Origin: Collinsella sp. AK_207A
GTDB lineage: Bacteria > Actinomycetota > Coriobacteriia > Coriobacteriales > Coriobacteriaceae
Reading direction: 5' to 3'
DNA length: 64,000 nucleotides
Assembly (NCBI RefSeq): GCF_902501965.1
Contig: NZ_CABWID010000024.1
Span: 1 to 64,000, forward strand
This document shows, piece by piece, positions 50,142 to 59,731 of the stretch. Each line of letters begins with the position of its first letter. The stretch's first letter is position 1. The position numbers and the translations under genes are program-made. The notes beneath the pieces were generated by a model. It searched no databases and was not told the origin of the DNA. It worked only from the letters and a program-made list of their open reading frames with translations.

Positions 50142-52367
50142 TTGGCCACCAAGAAGTCGACCCGGTCGAAGCTCGCCGTAACGGACGGCGATATCCATCT
50201 TTTCAAGCAGGGAACCTGGCAGCGCAGCTGGGAGAAGATGGGCGCTCACCCCGACGTCCAGAACGGCGTCGAGGGCTGGCGCTTCTGCGTGTGGGTCCCG
50301 GACGTGCGCTCCGTGCACGTGATCGGCGAGTTCAACGACTGGGACGAGACCGCCTGCCCGCTCTCCCCCGTAAAGTCTACGGGCCTCTGGGAAGGCTTCG
50401 AAGAGGGTGCCGAACGCGGCCAGCTCTACAAGTACCTCATCGAGACCGATAACGGGGAGCGTCTCTACAAGGCCGACCCCTACGCGTTCTACTCCGAAAA
50501 GGCCCCCGGCACCGCCTCGCGCCTGTGGACCCTGGATGGCTACGAGTGGCAGGACGCCGCCTGGCTCAAGGCGCGCGGCAAGCGCGACTTCATGAAGAGC
50601 CCGCTGAACATCTACGAGGTGCACCTAGGCAGTTGGCGCCGCCACGGCGACGAGCCGCAGGGCGAGCCCCGCGCGGACGGCACCTACCCCGGCCCCGGCG
50701 ACCCCTTCCCCGCGCAGCGCGGCACCTACTACACCTACGACGACCTCGCGGACGAGCTCGTGGCCTACGCGCGCGACATGGGCTACACGCATATCGAGGT
50801 CATGCCGCTCGCCGAGCATCCCTTCGACGGCTCCTGGGGGTACCAGGGCACCGGCTTCTACTCCGCCACCTCGCGCTACGGAACGCCGCAGCAGCTCATG
50901 CACTTCATCGATGCCGCGCACGCCGCCGGCATCGGCGTCATCATGGACTGGGTTCCCGGCCACTTCTGCCAGGACGCCCAGGGGCTCGCCAACTTCAACG
51001 GCCACATGCTCTATGAGAGCGAGTACCACCCCAACTGGGGCACCTACAAGTTCGACTTCGGCCGCCCCGAGGTCGTCTCGTTCCTGCTCTCCAACGCCAT
51101 CTTCTGGGTCGACCAGTTCCACGTGGACGGCCTGCGCGTGGACGGCGTCTCGTCCATGCTCTACCTCAACTTCGGCGTGGACAACCCGGCAGATAAGAAG
51201 TTCAACGAGCTGGGCACCGAGGAGAACCTGGAAGCCTCCGCGTTCCTGCGCAACGTCAACGGCGCCATGGGCACCCTCCACGAGGACGTGATGATGATCG
51301 CCGAGGAATCCACGGCTTGGCCACTCGTCACCTACCCGCCCGAGGACGGGGGCCTGGGCTTCCAGCTCAAATGGGACATGGGTTGGATGAACGACACCCT
51401 GCACTACATGCAGACGGACTTCCCCTGGCGCCCAGGCAACCACAACCTGCTCACCTTCTCGATCATGTACGCGTTCTCCGAGAACTACGTGCTGCCGCTC
51501 AGCCACGACGAGGTCGTGAACGGCAAGTGCTCGCTCATCACCCGCATGCCGGGCGACCAGTGGCGCCAGTTCGCAGGGCTCCGCTGCCTCTCGCTGTACC
51601 AGATGACGCATCCGGGCGCCAAGCTCAACTTCATGGGCAACGAGATCGGCCAGTACATCGAATGGCGCTACTACGAGTCCATCCAGTGGTTCCTGGCCGA
51701 GCAGTTCCCGCTGCACGCCGGCGTCCAGGAGTTCGTGCGCACGGTCAACCACCTATACACGCAGGAGCCCGCGCTCTGGCAGCGCGCCTACACCGAGGAC
51801 GGCTTTGAGTGGATCAACGCCAACGACTCCGAGCAGTCCGTCATCAGCTATGTGCGCCATGGCGAGAATCCTGACGACGACCTGCTCGTGGTCATCAACC
51901 TCACCCCCGCCTACTACGAGAGCTTCCGCGTGGGCGTGCCGCGCGAGGGCAAGTGGAAAGAGATCCTGAACTCCGACGACACGCGCTTTGGCGGCTCCGG
52001 CAAGGTGAACCCGCGCCAGCTCATCAGCCGCCACGAGGATTGCGACGGTCGCGAGTACTCGATCATCCCCCAGCTGCCCCCACTCGCCGGCGTGGTGTTC
52101 AAGCGCACCGGCACGGCCAAGCGCAAGCCCGCCGCCAAGAAGAGCGCGGCCGCAAAGAAGCCGGCGGCAGGCAAGACGACCGCGAAGCCGGTGGCGTCCA
52201 AGGCACCCGCCAAGCCCACGTCGGCAACGAAGGCGCAGGCTGCCAAGAAGGCGGCACCCGCGCCCGCAGCAAAGCCCGCGGCAAAAAAGCCCAGCGCGCC
52301 CAAAGCCGCGGTAAAGAAGGAATCAACCTCTGTTAATTCCGCAGGCAAGCGCAAGCGCGCGAAGTAG
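50142..52367 (+). CDS. glgB: 1,4-alpha-glucan branching enzyme with a Lys/Ala-rich tail
   Basis: A 741-residue GH13 branching enzyme that makes the alpha-1,6 branches of glycogen. A CBM48 domain (VIGEFNDWDE) comes first, then the catalytic barrel: MDWVPGHF, GLRVDGVSSMLYL with the nucleophile D334, the acid/base Glu in IAEESTAWP, and LSHDEVVNG. The start is a TTG with GAAGGGAACGG upstream; no better start exists. Unusually, the last 85 or so residues are a low-complexity Lys/Ala/Pro tail (AKKSAAAKKPAAGK and similar), ending GKRKRAK. First gene of glgB-glgP-glgC-glgD-glgA. Confidence 0.94.
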   Translation: MATKKSTRSKLAVTDGDIHLFKQGTWQRSWEKMGAHPDVQNGVEGWRFCVWVPDVRSVHVIGEFNDWDETACPLSPVKSTGLWEGFEEGAERGQLYKYLIETDNGERLYKADPYAFYSEKAPGTASRLWTLDGYEWQDAAWLKARGKRDFMKSPLNIYEVHLGSWRRHGDEPQGEPRADGTYPGPGDPFPAQRGTYYTYDDLADELVAYARDMGYTHIEVMPLAEHPFDGSWGYQGTGFYSATSRYGTPQQLMHFIDAAHAAGIGVIMDWVPGHFCQDAQGLANFNGHMLYESEYHPNWGTYKFDFGRPEVVSFLLSNAIFWVDQFHVDGLRVDGVSSMLYLNFGVDNPADKKFNELGTEENLEASAFLRNVNGAMGTLHEDVMMIAEESTAWPLVTYPPEDGGLGFQLKWDMGWMNDTLHYMQTDFPWRPGNHNLLTFSIMYAFSENYVLPLSHDEVVNGKCSLITRMPGDQWRQFAGLRCLSLYQMTHPGAKLNFMGNEIGQYIEWRYYESIQWFLAEQFPLHAGVQEFVRTVNHLYTQEPALWQRAYTEDGFEWINANDSEQSVISYVRHGENPDDDLLVVINLTPAYYESFRVGVPREGKWKEILNSDDTRFGGSGKVNPRQLISRHEDCDGREYSIIPQLPPLAGVVFKRTGTAKRKPAAKKSAAAKKPAAGKTTAKPVASKAPAKPTSATKAQAAKKAAPAPAAKPAAKKPSAPKAAVKKESTSVNSAGKRKRAK

Positions 52368-52455: not shown

Positions 52456-54882
52456 ATGAAGCCCCTTTTCAAGAGCAGGGAAGAGTTCGAAGAGCTGTAC
52501 CGCCAGGCCGTGGTCTCCTCTTGCGGCAAGGAGTTCGAGGACGCGAGCGATCTCAACCGCTACCAGGCCCTCGCCAAACTCGTCGCCTTCAAGGCCCGCG
52601 ACGTCGAGGCCGATACCGAGAAGCGCTACGCCGACAACGGCCAGAAGCGCGTGTACTACTTCTCCATCGAGTTCCTGATCGGCCGTCTGCTCGACAACTA
52701 CCTGCTGAACTTTGGCGTGCGCGATCTGGTTGCCGACTCCCTGACCGAGATGGGCAGCGACCTTGACGCGCTCTGCGCGCTCGAGCCTGACGCCGCGCTC
52801 GGCAACGGCGGCCTGGGCCGTCTGGCCGCGTGCTTCCTGGACTCCATGGCCCACGAGGGCATGGCCGGCTACGGCAACGGCATGCGCTACAAGTACGGCC
52901 TGTTCAAGCAGGAGATCGTGGACGGTCACCAGGTCGAGGTGGCCGACGAGTGGCTCACCAACGGCTATCCGTGGGAGGTGCGCCGCGCCGACCGCGCCGT
53001 GCGCATCGGCTTCGGCGGCCACGTGGTCTCCTACCAGGAGGGCGGCCGCACCTTCTTCCGCACCGAGGGTACGAGCGACGTGCTCGCCGTCCCGTACGAC
53101 ATCCCCGTGGTGGGTTACGGCGGAGAGACCGTTAACAAGCTCTGCGTGTGGAGCTCCGAGCCCGTTGACGAGCACTTCGACCTGGACGCCTTCAACCGCG
53201 GCGACTACTCCGGTGCCGACAAGGCCCGCGCCGATGCCGAAGCCATCAGCGCCATCCTCTACCCCAACGACCAGGGCGAGCACGGTCGCCTGCTGCGCCT
53301 CAAGCAGGAGTACCTGTTCGTGGCCGCCGGCATCCACCGTCTGATGGAGACCTTCGAGGAGGAGCACGGCGCCGACTGGCAGAGCCTGCCCAAGTACGTG
53401 GCCATCCACACCAACGACACCCACCCCGCCATGTGCGGCCCCGAGCTCATGCGCGTCCTCATGGACGAGAAGAAGCTCACCTGGGAAGAGGCCTGGGACA
53501 TCGTCACCAAGACGGTCTCCTACACCAACCACACCATCCTGCCCGAGGCCCTGGAGAAGTGGCCCATCCCCACGTTCTCCGCACTGCTGCCGCGCATCTA
53601 CCAGATCATCGAGGAGATCTCCCGCCGCTGGCGCGACCAGTTCACGCCCGAGATGCCCGACTGGCAGGAGCGTCTGCGGAACACCGCCGTGCTCTGGGAC
53701 GGCGAGGTCCGCATGGCCAACCTGTCCGTCATCTGCAGCCACAGCGTGAACGGCGTGGCCAAGATCCACACGGACATCCTCGAGGAGACCACGCTGCACG
53801 ACTTCTACGCGCTGCAGCCCGAGAAGTTCAACAACAAGACCAACGGCATCTCGCCCCGCCGCTTCTTCGCCGAGGCGAACCCCAGCTACGCCAAGCTCGT
53901 GACCGAGGCCATCGGCGACGGCTGGCTGGACGACGCCTCCGAGCTAAGCAAGCTCACCGAGTTCGAGGACGATTCCTCCTTCCTCATGCGCGTGGGCGCC
54001 TCCAAGCGCGTGAACAAGCTGCGCCTCGCCCGCTACGTGCGCCGCGAGACAGGCCTCATGATCGATCCGGACTCCATCTTCGACGTGCAGGTGAAGCGCT
54101 TCCACGCCTACAAGCGCCAGCTGCTCAACTGCTTCAAGATCATGGATCTCTACAACCGTCTGATCTCGGACCCGCGCTTTACCGTCCAGCCCACCACGTT
54201 CATCTTCTCGGGCAAGGCGGCCTCGAGCTACACCTTCGCCAAGGAGGTCATCCGCCTCATCAACGCGCTGGCCGACGTCATCAACAACGACGAGCGCGTG
54301 AACGACCTCATCAAGGTGTGCTTCATCCCCAACTTCCGCGTCTCGAACGCCCAGCTCATCTACCCCGCCGCCGAGATCTCCGAGCAGATCTCCACGGCCG
54401 GCAAGGAGGCCTCGGGCACCTCGAACATGAAGCTGATGATGAACGGCGCGATCACGCTGGGCACCCTCGACGGCGCCAACGTGGAGATCGCCGACCTCGC
54501 CGGGCGTGAGAACGAGATGATCTTCGGTCTCACCAAGCCCGAGGTGGCGGAGCTCCGCGCGAGCGGCAACTACTTTGCCTGGGACATCGTCAAGAGCGAC
54601 CCGGACCGTCTGGGCCGCATCATCAACGAGCTGACGGACGGCACCTTCGCGCGCCAGTCCGGCAACTTCGAGAGGATTCGTCACGAGGTCATGCTCAACA
54701 ACGACTACGACCTCGTTATGAAGGACTTCCATTCCTACGTGGACGCCTGGGAGGAGCTCACCGCCTCCTACAAGGACACGAGGGACTGGAACCGCCGCGC
54801 CCTGCACAACACGGCCATGTCTGGCTGGTTCTCGAGCGATCGCACGATCCGCGAGTACCGCGACGACATCTGGCACGCGTAG
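52456..54882 (+). CDS. glgP: Glycogen phosphorylase
   Basis: An 808-residue PLP enzyme that releases glucose 1-phosphate from glycogen. Motifs include YFSIEFLIGRLLDNYLLN, ALGNGGLGRLAACFLDS, HTNDTHPAMCGPELMR, and VKRFHAYKRQLLN. The PLP lysine is K659 in ASGTSNMKLMMNG, followed by LDGANVEI. I start at 52456, preceded by GGAGAGGAACGC; an open frame extends 16 codons upstream. No Lys/Ala tail is present here, unlike in GlgB and GlgA. It follows glgB by 88 nt. Confidence 0.96.
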   Translation: MKPLFKSREEFEELYRQAVVSSCGKEFEDASDLNRYQALAKLVAFKARDVEADTEKRYADNGQKRVYYFSIEFLIGRLLDNYLLNFGVRDLVADSLTEMGSDLDALCALEPDAALGNGGLGRLAACFLDSMAHEGMAGYGNGMRYKYGLFKQEIVDGHQVEVADEWLTNGYPWEVRRADRAVRIGFGGHVVSYQEGGRTFFRTEGTSDVLAVPYDIPVVGYGGETVNKLCVWSSEPVDEHFDLDAFNRGDYSGADKARADAEAISAILYPNDQGEHGRLLRLKQEYLFVAAGIHRLMETFEEEHGADWQSLPKYVAIHTNDTHPAMCGPELMRVLMDEKKLTWEEAWDIVTKTVSYTNHTILPEALEKWPIPTFSALLPRIYQIIEEISRRWRDQFTPEMPDWQERLRNTAVLWDGEVRMANLSVICSHSVNGVAKIHTDILEETTLHDFYALQPEKFNNKTNGISPRRFFAEANPSYAKLVTEAIGDGWLDDASELSKLTEFEDDSSFLMRVGASKRVNKLRLARYVRRETGLMIDPDSIFDVQVKRFHAYKRQLLNCFKIMDLYNRLISDPRFTVQPTTFIFSGKAASSYTFAKEVIRLINALADVINNDERVNDLIKVCFIPNFRVSNAQLIYPAAEISEQISTAGKEASGTSNMKLMMNGAITLGTLDGANVEIADLAGRENEMIFGLTKPEVAELRASGNYFAWDIVKSDPDRLGRIINELTDGTFARQSGNFERIRHEVMLNNDYDLVMKDFHSYVDAWEELTASYKDTRDWNRRALHNTAMSGWFSSDRTIREYRDDIWHA

Positions 54883-54960: not shown

Positions 54961-56106
54961 ATGGGCAAGAAAGAATGCATCGCGATGCTCCTCGCAGGAG
55001 GACAGGGAAGCAGGTTGGGGGCTCTGACCTCGAAGATCGCTAAACCGGCCGTCTCGTTTGGCGGCAAGTTCAGGATCATCGACTTCGCGCTTTCAAACTG
55101 CACGAACTCCGGCATCGACACGGTGGGCGTGCTCACCCAGTACCGACCCTACCTGCTGCACAGCTACATCGGTTCCGGCGAGGCGTGGGACCTGGACGCC
55201 CGTGACGGCGGCGTCTCCATCCTCCCCCCCTACGCCACCCAGGAGGGAGGCGCCTGGTACGCGGGCACAGCCGACGCCATCACGCAAAACCTCGAGTACA
55301 TCAAGATGTACGACCCCGAGTACGTGCTGATCCTCTCCGGTGACCACCTGTACCGCATGGACTACCGCAAGATGCTCGCCAGCCATATCCAGCACAAGGC
55401 CGACCTCACCGTGTCGGTCATGCCCGTGCCCTGGGAGGAGGCCAGCCGCTTCGGCATCCTGACCGCCGACGACGACGGCCGCATCCAGCGGTTCGACGAG
55501 AAGCCCGAGAAGCCCGAGAGCAACCTGGCCTCCATGGGCATCTACATCTTCTCGACCAAGGTGCTCGTGGACGCCCTCGAGGCCGATGCCGTTGACCAGC
55601 GCTCGAGCCACGACTTCGGCAAGGACATCATCCCCAAGCTGCTCAGTGAGGGCTATGGCCTCTACACCTACGAGTTCCACGGCTTCTGGAAGGACGTCGG
55701 CACCATCGCGAGCTTCCACGAGACGTCGATGGACCTGCTCGGCCCGAACCCCGAGTTCGACCTGTACGACAAGAGCTTCCCGATCCTGAGCAACATCACC
55801 ACGCGCCCGCCGCACTACATCGGTCCCGACGCGGTGATCGACGACGCGCTGGTCTCGAACGGATGCAAGGTGTACGGCACCGTGCGCCACTCGATCGTCT
55901 CCACCGACGCGGTGGTGGGCGAGCGCGCCGTCGTCGAGGATTCCGTGCTGCTGCCCGGCGCGCAGGTGAAGGCCGGGGCGCACGTGCGCCGCGCCATCCT
56001 GGGCGAGAACGCCGTGGTTGAGGAAGGCGTCAAGCTCGGCTCCGTGGACACGACGAAGGATACGGCCGTCGTTGGAAACGACGTCGTCATCGGGAAGGGG
56101 GAATGA
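54961..56106 (+). CDS. glgC: Glucose-1-phosphate adenylyltransferase
   Basis: A 381-residue enzyme that makes ADP-glucose, the donor for glycogen synthase, and is normally the controlled step. The nucleotide motif is [15 protein letters not shown], with [19 protein letters not shown] next. [13 protein letters not shown] holds the catalytic Asp, and [16 protein letters not shown] is conserved. The C-terminal left-handed beta helix has hexapeptide repeats. GAGGAAAGGTTCG precedes the ATG. It is paired with glgD 4 nt downstream. Confidence 0.96.
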
Positions 56107-56110
56107 ACCG

Positions 56111-57229
56111 ATGAGCATGACGCAGAACCGCACTCTCGGCTATATCACCGCTAACTACATCACCCGCGAGAACAGCGTGCTGACCGCCAACCGCCCGCTG
56201 GCGTCCGTGCCGTTCATGGGCCGCTACCGGCTCATCGACTTCCCGCTCTCCAACATGATGAACGCGGGCATCAAGACCGTCGGCCTCGTGATGCCCGGCA
56301 ACTGCCGCTCCATCATGGACCACGTCGGCTCGGGTAAGGACTGGCTGCTCGACCGCAAGAAGGGCGGTCTCTTCCTGGTGCCCGGAAATGCCTACGGCAC
56401 CTCCAAGCGCGGCATGCGCTTCCTGCTGCGCGACATCATCGCCAACAAGGAGCTCTTCAAGCGCTCCGATAAGCCCTACGTGGTCATGATGGGCTCCTCC
56501 ATCGTGTTCAACCTCGATCTGCACCAGATCGTGGACGCGCACGAGACCTCGGGCGCGGGCATCACCATGGTGTACGTCAAGGCGGTCCGCCACCAGGACG
56601 ACGCCTCCTCGCTCGTGATCGGCGACCGCGGCCGCGTGACGCAGGTCAGGCCCGGCTGCGATTACGGCGACAACAAGTTCATGGACTGCTTCATCATCGA
56701 CCGCAAGCTGCTGCTCGACATCATCGAGGACTACGCCACGGCCGACTACCTCGACATCTTCGAGGCCATCGCCGGCGACTTCGCGCGCATCGACGTGTGC
56801 AGCTACGAGTTCAAGGGCCTCGTGGTGGGCATCCATGGCGAGGAGACCTACTACGAGCGGAGCATGCAGCTCATCGACCCGAGCATCTACGAGCAGCTCT
56901 TCAACCCCGATCGCCCGATCATCACCAAGGCGCACGACGCGCCCCCGGCGAAGTACTTCGCGGGCAGCCGTGCCACCAACTCACTGATCTCTACCGGTTG
57001 CGAGATCAAGGGCACCGTCCGCGGCTCCATCCTCTCCCGCGGCGTGATCGTGGAGAGCGGTGCACAGGTGGTCAACTCCATCCTCATGCAAAGCTGCGTC
57101 ATCAAGAGCGGCGCGCGCGTGGAGAACGCCATCCTGGACAAGAACAACGTGGTTCCCGCCAACACGGAGCTGCGCGGAACGCCCGAGCACACCCTGGTGC
57201 TTGGTAAGGCCCCGCTGAATGCCGAGTAA
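56111..57229 (+). CDS. glgD: GlgD, regulatory-type glucose-1-phosphate adenylyltransferase subunit
   Basis: A 372-residue GlgC paralogue. It keeps the fold (VPFMGRYRLIDFPLSNMMNAG, YVVMMGSSIVFNLDL) and the C-terminal beta helix (GSILSRGVIVESGAQVVNSI). The N-terminal GGxGxR-type nucleotide loop is replaced by TANYITRENSVLTANRPLAS, as is typical of GlgD. In Firmicutes GlgD is catalytically weak and raises GlgC activity in a mixed tetramer. GGGAAGGGGGA precedes the ATG at 56111. Confidence 0.92.
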   Translation: MSMTQNRTLGYITANYITRENSVLTANRPLASVPFMGRYRLIDFPLSNMMNAGIKTVGLVMPGNCRSIMDHVGSGKDWLLDRKKGGLFLVPGNAYGTSKRGMRFLLRDIIANKELFKRSDKPYVVMMGSSIVFNLDLHQIVDAHETSGAGITMVYVKAVRHQDDASSLVIGDRGRVTQVRPGCDYGDNKFMDCFIIDRKLLLDIIEDYATADYLDIFEAIAGDFARIDVCSYEFKGLVVGIHGEETYYERSMQLIDPSIYEQLFNPDRPIITKAHDAPPAKYFAGSRATNSLISTGCEIKGTVRGSILSRGVIVESGAQVVNSILMQSCVIKSGARVENAILDKNNVVPANTELRGTPEHTLVLGKAPLNAE

Positions 57230-57316: not shown

Positions 57317-59731
57317 ATGTCTGATACAAGGAAGCTCGGCGTCGTCTTTGCCTCTGCCGAGGCCGCGCCCTTCGTGAAGACCGGCGGGCTCGGCGACGTG
57401 GCGGGCTCGCTGCCTCCCGCGCTCGAGGCCGAGGGCGTGAACGTCATCGTCATGGTCCCGCTCTACAGCACCATCCCCGAGGAGTACCAGCGCCAGATGG
57501 AGCATCTGTGCGACTTCTACGTTCCGCTGGGCTGGCGCAACGAGTACTGCGGCCTGGAGCGCCTGGTGCACGACGGCGTGACCTACCTCTTCGTAGATAA
57601 CAAGCGCTACTTCGACCGCAGCTACCCTTACGGCTTCTTTGACGATGGCGAGCGCTTCGCGTTCTTCTCAAAGGCCATCGTGGAGAGCCTGCAGCACCTG
57701 CCCGAGGGCTTTACCTGCGACATCCTGCACTGCAACGACTGGCAGACGGCGCTCGCCCCGGTGTTCCTGCGCGAGTTCTACCAGGGTCTCCCCCTCTACG
57801 AGAACGTTCGGACAATCTTCTCCATCCACAACGTGGCGTTCCAGGGCCAGTTCACCGACAAGATGCTGAACGACGTGCTGGGACTGGCGCATATCACCGC
57901 TGCCGCGAGCCAGCTGCGCTGCGACGACAGCTCCATCAACTACATGATGGGCGCACTCAACTACGCGGACGCCATCACCACCGTCTCCCCCACCTACGCG
58001 GCAGAGATTCAGACGCCGGCCTTCGGTGAGCGCCTGGACGGCGTGCTGCGCCGCCGTAGCGAGGCCCTGCAGGGCATCGTGAACGGCATCGACGTGAACG
58101 CCTGGAACCCGGCCACCGACAAGGCGATCGCAGCCACGTACACGGCCGAGGACCTCTCCGGTAAGGCCGCGTGCAAGCGAGCACTGCAAGAGGAACTGGG
58201 GCTCGAGGTCCGCGATGACCGCCCGCTCATGACGATGGTCACGCGCCTCACGCGCCAGAAGGGCATGGACCTCGTGACCTACGCGCTCGACCGCATCCTC
58301 TCCGGCGGCGTGCAGGTGGCGGTGCTCGGCACGGGAGACTACGAGTACGAGAATGCGCTGCGCTACTTCGAGGGCAAGTACCCTGGTCAGATGAGCGCGC
58401 GCATCCAGTTCGACGCCGCGCTCTCCAAGCGCATGTACGCCGGCTCGGACCTGTTCCTCATGCCGAGCCTCTTTGAGCCCTGTGGCCTCTCCCAGATGAT
58501 CGCCATGCGCTACGGAACCCTGCCCGTGGTTCGCGAGACGGGCGGCCTCAGGGACACCGTGGCGCCCTACAACTACGTGACGGGCGAGGGCACAGGTTTC
58601 TCGTTCGCCAACTTCAACGGCGACGAGATGGGCGACGCCGTGTTCCGCGGCGCGCGCCTGTTCCGGGATGATCCCGAGGCCTTCCACCAGCTGCGGCTAA
58701 ACGCCATGAGCCAGGACTTCAGCTGGAAGAAGAGCGCGGACAAGTACCTCGACCTGTACTTCTGGATGCATCCGGAGGTGCCGCGGCGGGCGTCCGAGGC
58801 GGTTGTGGATGCGGAGGCCGCTGCGAAGCCGGAGGCCAAGGTTGAGCCGGTTGCCGAGCAGTCCGTGACACCCGCGGCGAAGAAGCCCGCCGCAAAGGTA
58901 GAATCTGCGGAGAAGCCTATCGAGAAGAAGCCCGCAGCGAAGGGTGTAACCAAGCCGAAGGCCGCGAGCAAGCCGGCAGCCAAGCCCACGGCGCGCAAGA
59001 CGGCGGCGAAGGCCGCTTCCGCGAAGGCTGCTGCCGAGAAACCTGCCGCCGAGAAGACGTCGGAAGCCTCGAAGCCGGCTGCCAAGTCCGCGACCAAAAC
59101 CGCACCGAAGAAGACAGCCGCTGCGCCTGCGGCCAAACCTGCCGCTCAGTCCCCCGCCAAAGCCGCGGTAAAGACCACTCCCAAGGCGACTACCAAGACC
59201 GCCGCGAAGCCAGCGGAGGAGAAGGCGGCGGCGACAAAGGTAACGGTCAAGGTGGCGGAAGCCAAGGCAGCCACGAAGGCTACGGCTGTCGAACCCGCCA
59301 AGACCGAGGTAAAGGCCCCGGCCAAGCCCGCGGCCCACAAGACGGCCCATAAGACGACAGCGACGAAACCAACTGCAAAGCCCGCGACGAGCGCCAAATC
59401 CGTCGCTGAGATGCCTGTGACGGCTAAGAGGGCAACCAAGGCAGCGTCGGCGGAAGCCACTCCGGCAGTTAAAGCTTCGGCGAGCTCCAAGCCTGTTGCC
59501 GAGGTAAAGCCCGCCGAGAAGAAGAAGACTGTCGCGAAGCCAGCTCCCAAGCACATAGCCGCGAAGCCCGCGGCGAAGAAGGAGACTCCGACCAGCCCGA
59601 AGCACATGGCGGAGCCCGCGCCCGCCGAGAAGCCGGCTGTTTCGGCCCCGGCCAAGCCGGCAGCCAAACCGGTGACGAGGACGCGCGTCTCAGCTGCTAA
59701 GAAACCGACGACCCGCAGCAAGCGGAAGTAG
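57317..59731 (+). CDS. glgA: Glycogen synthase with a 310-residue histone-H1-like tail
   Basis: An 804-residue protein. Residues 1-490 are a complete GT5 glycogen synthase, which extends glycogen from ADP-glucose: the N-terminal loop is VKTGGLGDVAGSLPPALE, followed by HCNDWQTALAPVFL, MVTRLTRQKGMDLV and LFEPCGLSQMIAMRYG. From about residue 495 to the end it is almost only Lys, Ala, Pro, Thr, Ser, Val and Glu, with repeats such as AAKPAAKPTARKTAAKAA, ending TRSKRK. Such tails are known in H1-like and AlgP-like proteins but not usually on glycogen synthases. AAGGAGTTTTAC precedes the ATG. Last gene of the operon, with a terminator 26 nt later. Confidence 0.94.
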   Translation: MSDTRKLGVVFASAEAAPFVKTGGLGDVAGSLPPALEAEGVNVIVMVPLYSTIPEEYQRQMEHLCDFYVPLGWRNEYCGLERLVHDGVTYLFVDNKRYFDRSYPYGFFDDGERFAFFSKAIVESLQHLPEGFTCDILHCNDWQTALAPVFLREFYQGLPLYENVRTIFSIHNVAFQGQFTDKMLNDVLGLAHITAAASQLRCDDSSINYMMGALNYADAITTVSPTYAAEIQTPAFGERLDGVLRRRSEALQGIVNGIDVNAWNPATDKAIAATYTAEDLSGKAACKRALQEELGLEVRDDRPLMTMVTRLTRQKGMDLVTYALDRILSGGVQVAVLGTGDYEYENALRYFEGKYPGQMSARIQFDAALSKRMYAGSDLFLMPSLFEPCGLSQMIAMRYGTLPVVRETGGLRDTVAPYNYVTGEGTGFSFANFNGDEMGDAVFRGARLFRDDPEAFHQLRLNAMSQDFSWKKSADKYLDLYFWMHPEVPRRASEAVVDAEAAAKPEAKVEPVAEQSVTPAAKKPAAKVESAEKPIEKKPAAKGVTKPKAASKPAAKPTARKTAAKAASAKAAAEKPAAEKTSEASKPAAKSATKTAPKKTAAAPAAKPAAQSPAKAAVKTTPKATTKTAAKPAEEKAAATKVTVKVAEAKAATKATAVEPAKTEVKAPAKPAAHKTAHKTTATKPTAKPATSAKSVAEMPVTAKRATKAASAEATPAVKASASSKPVAEVKPAEKKKTVAKPAPKHIAAKPAAKKETPTSPKHMAEPAPAEKPAVSAPAKPAAKPVTRTRVSAAKKPTTRSKRK

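Follow-up and report, generated by a model that had tools for sequence, protein, structure and literature searches.

The window, i.e., the whole 64-kb stretch of DNA that was analysed, contains a glg operon with the gene order B-P-C-D-A (Table 1). This order was contiguous in all 20 loci that we inspected closely, Atopobiaceae among them. Pfam analysis placed the GlgB core (CBM48, GH13 and Alpha-amylase_C domains) and GlgA (Glyco_transf_5 and Glycos_transf_1) in their expected families, and GlgB structures from PDB matched the GlgB core with E-values of 1e-136 to 6e-185. A short basic segment, MATKKSTRSK, precedes the conserved core at the N-terminus of GlgB (window 50142–50180).

Table 1. Genes of the glg operon and tail features in the window
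Feature	Position	Strand	Evidence and remarks
glgB, GH13 glycogen branching enzyme with CBM48	50142..52367	+	Core residues 1-655; Pfam CBM_48, Alpha-amylase, Alpha-amylase_C; PDB GlgB structures
GlgB cationic disordered tail	52107..52364	+	86 Lys/Ala/Pro-rich residues (656-741), net +24; composition and AlphaFold
glgP, glycogen phosphorylase, tail-less	52456..54882	+	ORF open from 52408; ATG at 52456 with GGAGAGG upstream
glgC, ADP-glucose pyrophosphorylase, tail-less	54961..56106	+	Pfam, ORF
glgD, GlgC-like regulatory subunit, tail-less	56111..57229	+	ATG start probable; frame open from 56018
glgA, GT5 glycogen synthase with long C-terminal tail	57317..59731	+	Pfam Glyco_transf_5 and Glycos_transf_1
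GlgA disordered tail	58778..59728	+	Residues 488-804, net +47; lysine-rich from ~58808; AlphaFold
Conserved Arg-rich C-terminal end of GlgA tail	59681..59728	+	Here TRVSAAKKPTTRSKRK; in relatives VSAARKTTTRKKR and variants

The alignment with solved GlgB structures stops at residue 650–662 and the Pfam Alpha-amylase_C domain at residue 655, leaving a C-terminal tail of very different composition. Counted with two further upstream residues, for a total of 88 aa, this tail has 26% Lys, 32% Ala and 11% Pro and a net charge of +26. Lys makes up only 3% of the core, and the binomial probability of the observed lysine count given this frequency is 5e-15. The GlgB tail is real, coding and well above chance expectation, and a sequence-only reading of the same DNA, which had placed about 85 such residues at 52110–52367, was right to within one codon. 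As that reading also noted, GlgA ends in a tail of the same low-complexity type (~307–310 aa, 20% Lys, net charge about +46 to +47), and GlgP, GlgC and GlgD of the window have no tail and stop at their domain ends. No secondary structure was predicted by AlphaFold in either tail, with pLDDT of about 32–42 for GlgB residues 671–741 and about 40–50 for GlgA residues 494–804.

Tails of this kind are rare in the source genome, as judged from a whole-genome scan for the KPAAK motif and a 730-kb genome sample. KPAAK codons occurred in frame within a low-complexity tail only in TopA (topoisomerase I), GlgB and GlgA, and the same three proteins were the only ones with strict K/A/P/T/S tails in the 730-kb sample. 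A six-frame scan of the window detected no K/A/P-rich stretch of 85 residues besides the GlgB and GlgA tails, and no gene neighbouring the glg genes carried such a tail in ~90 glg loci of relatives. The TopA tail of this genome is 38 aa long and has the same motif as the Glg tails. TopA tails were K/A/T-rich in Coriobacteriaceae, where their motif type matches that of the Glg tails, and shorter, mostly Gly/Arg-rich in Atopobiaceae (L184:13305-15854 (-), L227-L252). In the latter family, GlgB tails were of the KPAAK type although TopA tails were mostly Gly/Arg-rich, a comparison in which low complexity precludes a homology test between TopA and Glg tails.

We then scanned 80 loci from named genomes of Collinsella and Enorma (Coriobacteriaceae) and Olsenella, Thermophilibacter and Atopobium (Atopobiaceae), with Clostridia as the outgroup; more genomes were added later. 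Median GlgB tails were 82 aa (net +22.5) in Coriobacteriaceae, 77 aa (+19) in Atopobiaceae and 12 aa (+2) in Clostridia. Median GlgA tails were 269 aa (+28.5) in Coriobacteriaceae and 9 aa in Atopobiaceae, and there were none in Clostridia. The median tail length of GlgP, GlgC and GlgD was 0 (74–111 orthologues), and none of the glg operons examined had a cationic tail on any of these three proteins. Thus, the earlier claim that tails are restricted to the polymer-building enzymes holds in all operons examined.

A tail was scored as present at 30 aa and net +10, a threshold on which the calls for two borderline loci (L051 and L204) depend. Among the 37 Coriobacteriaceae, 29 had both tails, two had only the GlgB tail and six had only the GlgA tail; none of the 37 lacked both. 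Among the 43 Atopobiaceae, 37 had the GlgB tail only and six had neither, so that all four combinations of tail presence were seen among the 80 genomes. The sequence-only reading had suggested a common tether, with co-occurrence of the two tails across genomes as a check and, as the first half of what would count against it, their independent occurrence; the latter is what we observed. No co-occurrence of GlgA and GlgB tails was detected in the 80 distinct genomes with both genes (Fisher odds ratio 0.74, p 0.76), GlgA tails in six of 37 Coriobacteriaceae were without a strong GlgB tail, and neither the length nor the charge of the GlgA tail was correlated with that of the GlgB tail. On a FastTree phylogeny of concatenated cores (86 rows, some on long branches), a single change accounts for the GlgA tail, on a branch with full support that holds 36 Coriobacteriaceae; for the GlgB tail, eight changes are needed. 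Together, the contingency table and the tree rule out strict pairing of the two tails. They indicate that the GlgB tail, shared by Coriobacteriaceae and Atopobiaceae, predates the GlgA tail, that the latter arose once, inside Coriobacteriaceae, and that the two were gained and lost independently.

The idea of a common tether for glycogen assembly was therefore only partially borne out: the tails are found on the builders only and, as described below, their lysines are selected, but the tails are not paired in evolution. The GlgB tail was absent from all four genomes with a GC content at or below 0.48, and was also missing in a few Collinsella and several Atopobiaceae. L187, a member with both enzymes of a family tentatively taken to be Eggerthellaceae-like, had a tail on neither GlgB nor GlgA. 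Being lineage-bound and lost in several genomes, the tail is dispensable. A second GlgB paralogue (35–40% identical), which is carried by many Atopobiaceae and some Coriobacteriaceae (L207-L226), was tail-less in 20 of 20 Coriobacteriales genomes.

The body of the tails shows a rapid turnover of length, sequence and composition. This turnover, together with the loss of the GlgB tail in the four lowest-GC genomes, could be explained if the tails were neutral low-complexity extensions of GC-rich genomes that spread through repeat slippage. However, the pattern of substitutions argues against this. In the C. aerofaciens clade, identity between species was 94–95% for Lys, 79% for Ala and 42–75% for Thr positions of the tails, and in the GlgA tail 49 of the 52 lysine columns showed no variation; Ala, Thr, Ser and Pro interchange freely while lysines are nearly invariant. 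The strongest evidence of selection comes from a matched control, in which Lys-to-Glu and Thr-to-Ala changes both result from the same mutation type, A-to-G at codon position 1. K to E accounted for 0.7% (GlgB) and 3.3% (GlgA) of residue comparisons and T to A for 36% and 18%, respectively; thus, Lys-to-Glu changes were 6–50 times rarer than the mutation-matched Thr-to-Ala changes. The dN/dS ratio was 0.26–0.57 for tails, values biased downwards by low-complexity alignment, and 0.035–0.16 for cores. These data show that the tails are under selection for lysine charge and are not junk, and selection on the lysines argues that the tails have some function. In addition, AAG is not a GC-rich codon, tail charge was not correlated with GC content inside either family, tails were absent from all neighbouring genes and from the GlgB paralogue, and the Arg-rich end of GlgA is conserved. 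Neutral drift is unlikely and largely refuted by lysine conservation, and we give it a very small chance. We also rejected GC content as a driver of the tails given the lack of a within-family correlation, although the four lowest-GC genomes had no GlgB tail.

The end of the GlgA tail behaves differently from its body. The last 16 residues (VSAARKTTTRKKR and variants) contained 23.1 bits compared with 4.6 +/- 0.44 bits for random tail windows, a score inflated by shared ancestry; the enrichment of Arg, 19.5% in this end and 2.0% elsewhere in the tail, is independent of the alignment. This conserved Arg-rich end was seen in Coriobacteriaceae (L045-L119) and is a possible docking motif.

Several known proteins resemble the tailed Glg enzymes in part. 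PhaF, a Pseudomonas phasin of PHA granules, joins a part that binds the storage polymer to a disordered and repetitive C-terminal part that resembles H1 and AlgP, binds DNA and is natively unfolded without it (PMC3574117). AlgP, which is found on polyphosphate granules of Pseudomonas aeruginosa, has the KPAA-type composition, predicted disorder and high positive charge (PMC9239181). Both GlgB and GlgA have the corresponding Lys/Ala/Pro-rich, predicted disordered and strongly positive C-terminal region, and the putative polymer-binding end of GlgB, judged from its Pfam domains, would consist of CBM48 and a glucan active site. However, PhaF is a structural phasin of a different polymer (PHA) and not a polymerising enzyme; DNA binding and granule segregation were demonstrated for PhaF and can only be proposed for the Glg tails. 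No phasin N-terminal domain was found in GlgB or GlgA by Pfam, so that the similarity to PhaF is one of tail type and not of family membership. AlgP also differs in that it has a predicted helical domain, not an enzyme, at its N-terminus and its granule is polyphosphate, whereas Glg tails are retained in genomes that lack both Ppk1 and Ppk2. The third comparable case, the lysine-repeat domain of actinobacterial topoisomerase I, is likewise a Lys-rich H1-like C-terminal tail, which stabilises TopA on DNA and increases its processivity (PMC7398561); unlike the Glg enzymes, TopA acts directly on DNA, and its tail is short here. On the other hand, GlgB and GlgA of Clostridia are similar to the Coriobacteriales enzymes in their cores (~52–58% identical) and domain order, but these and other ordinary GlgB and GlgA proteins, including those with solved structures, terminate at a catalytic or all-beta domain and lack a cationic tail.

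By analogy with these proteins, the tails may be PhaF/AlgP-like, histone H1-like polycationic disordered anchors that attach glycogen to the nucleoid. We favor this reading tentatively and place it somewhat short of an even chance. The catalytic cores would grip nascent glycogen, GlgB via CBM48 and its active site and GlgA via its active site, and the lysine-rich tails would grip a cellular polyanion non-specifically, most likely nucleoid DNA (or RNA). Tethered in this way, glycogen particles would stay spread over the nucleoid rather than clustering at a pole and keeping the chromosome out of it. In E. coli, whose glycogen enzymes are untailed, glycogen of csrA mutants gathers at old poles, from which the chromosome is excluded (PMC4836754). 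Anchoring would then be solved as by PhaF for PHA and AlgP for polyphosphate, with the anchor placed here on the polymerising enzymes. GlgB would be the ancestral anchor, to which GlgA of Coriobacteriaceae would have added a longer anchor that ends in the conserved Arg-rich motif. Several observations support a nucleoid tether, including lysine conservation, dN/dS below 1 and the lack of AlphaFold structure in the tails; the location of the sole other strict tail in 730 kb on a DNA enzyme, TopA; a KPAA motif type that is also that of the DNA-binding AlgP and PhaF; the absence of tails from GlgP, GlgC, GlgD and the GlgB paralogue; and the retention of at least one tail by every Coriobacteriaceae genome (n=37). 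Against it, polycations bind many things and the tails are dispensable. In addition, TopA retains Lys where the GlgB tail was lost, which suggests that the GlgB tail is expendable while DNA-type tails persist.

The acidic part of most GlgA tails also counts against nucleoid tethering, as DNA binding alone does not explain it. In Coriobacteriaceae, these tails are mostly di-block: their proximal quarter is acidic, of PEPE/EEPK type (net charge down to -22), and the remainder is strongly basic (L047, L057, L078, L050 and others). This organization would fit an enzyme-enzyme scaffold, in which the cationic tails bind the strongly acidic cores of GlgB, GlgP and GlgC or the acidic block of the GlgA tail, and the resulting electrostatic condensate builds glycogen with no need for nucleic acid. 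The cores are acidic (median net charge -39 for GlgB, -29 for GlgP, -19 for GlgC and -18 for GlgA), and the glg genes form a single operon of fixed order. However, most cytosolic proteins are acidic, which makes the core charge weak evidence. The independent variation of the GlgA and GlgB tails is contrary to mutual dependence, Atopobiaceae retain the GlgB tail although their GlgA is tail-less, and the acidic block is absent from the GlgA tail of the window and a few others. We consider such a scaffold improbable, if worth keeping in mind.

Polyphosphate, which the sequence-only reading had listed along with DNA as a possible common ligand, is weakened by the distribution of polyphosphate kinases. 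If the tails bound polyphosphate granules, they would couple two reserves. AlgP has the same KPAA composition and associates with polyphosphate granules (PMC9239181), and 42 of the 45 genomes examined from the genus encode Ppk1. Weak GlgB tails were found in three of nine genomes without Ppk1 and three of 58 with Ppk1 (Fisher p 0.028), but these rows are not phylogenetically independent and the association is confounded, since of the three Ppk1-less genomes with a lost tail, two have a GC content of at most 0.48. Moreover, neither Ppk1 nor Ppk2 was matched in G034 or in the genomes that contain L102, L104 and L105, yet the GlgB tails of these four carry net charges from +16 to +37, although L105 is a metagenome assembly in which Ppk absence is less sure; three Collinsella (G015, G026 and G034) with no Ppk match had GlgA tails of +22 to +31. 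The four Ppk1/Ppk2-less genomes with strong GlgB tails rule out polyphosphate as an obligate ligand, and a polyphosphate tether in general has a slim chance. Both Ppk1 and Ppk2 were unmatched in the genomes of L127 (G015), L128 (G026), L129 (G034), L102, L104, L105 and L109, near-complete Collinsella included, and polyphosphate synthesis looks to have been lost repeatedly in this order.

The tails might also act on the enzymes themselves, either raising affinity for glycogen that carries phosphate monoesters or serving as entropic bristles that alter the processivity or solubility of both enzymes. They sit on both enzymes that act on growing chains, the lysine repeats of TopA raise its processivity, and phosphate monoesters of glycogen and starch are reported to affect the affinity of branching enzymes (PMC13011383). 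However, GlgP, which also acts on chains, was never tailed, chains of this kind are presumably also the substrate of the tail-less GlgB paralogue, and a bristle needs no lysine in particular, yet lysine is conserved. We regard this explanation as rather unlikely.

PhaM, PhaF, PhaH and AlgP each attach to a storage granule and also bind DNA, and the review that describes them names PHB, polyphosphate, carboxysomes and magnetosomes among positioned organelles and does not mention glycogen (PMC13052382). The positioning of bacterial glycogen and its sharing between daughter cells have scarcely been studied. If the nucleoid-tether reading is extended to its full form, Coriobacteriales glycogen would be anchored and segregated on the nucleoid by H1-like tails fused to the polymerising enzymes, a third, independently evolved use of such tails for a third polymer (after PHA with PhaF and polyphosphate with AlgP), with the conserved Arg-rich docking end of GlgA adding specificity; we consider this complete scenario doubtful. 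A literature search, with subscription papers mostly outside its reach and hence weak as evidence of novelty, found no report of Lys-rich GlgB or GlgA tails or of glycogen-nucleoid tethering. Were the tails to tether glycogen to the nucleoid, its placement would be controlled by a simple segment of two enzymes that is genetically separable, and one cheap type of polymer-to-DNA tether would have evolved repeatedly for different reserves. Natural tail-less relatives, such as Atopobium fossor, and the tail-less GlgB paralogue in the same cells provide ready controls, and the hosts, Collinsella and Olsenella, are common gut bacteria.

Finally, two Coriobacteriaceae loci, L131 (G001) and L199 (G258), had GlgA tails that kept a net charge of +22 while being richer in Arg and Ser and poorer in Lys (in L199, 15 Lys in 226 aa), and TopA of the same genomes retained Lys. 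In these two GlgA tails, the conserved feature seems to be charge rather than residue.
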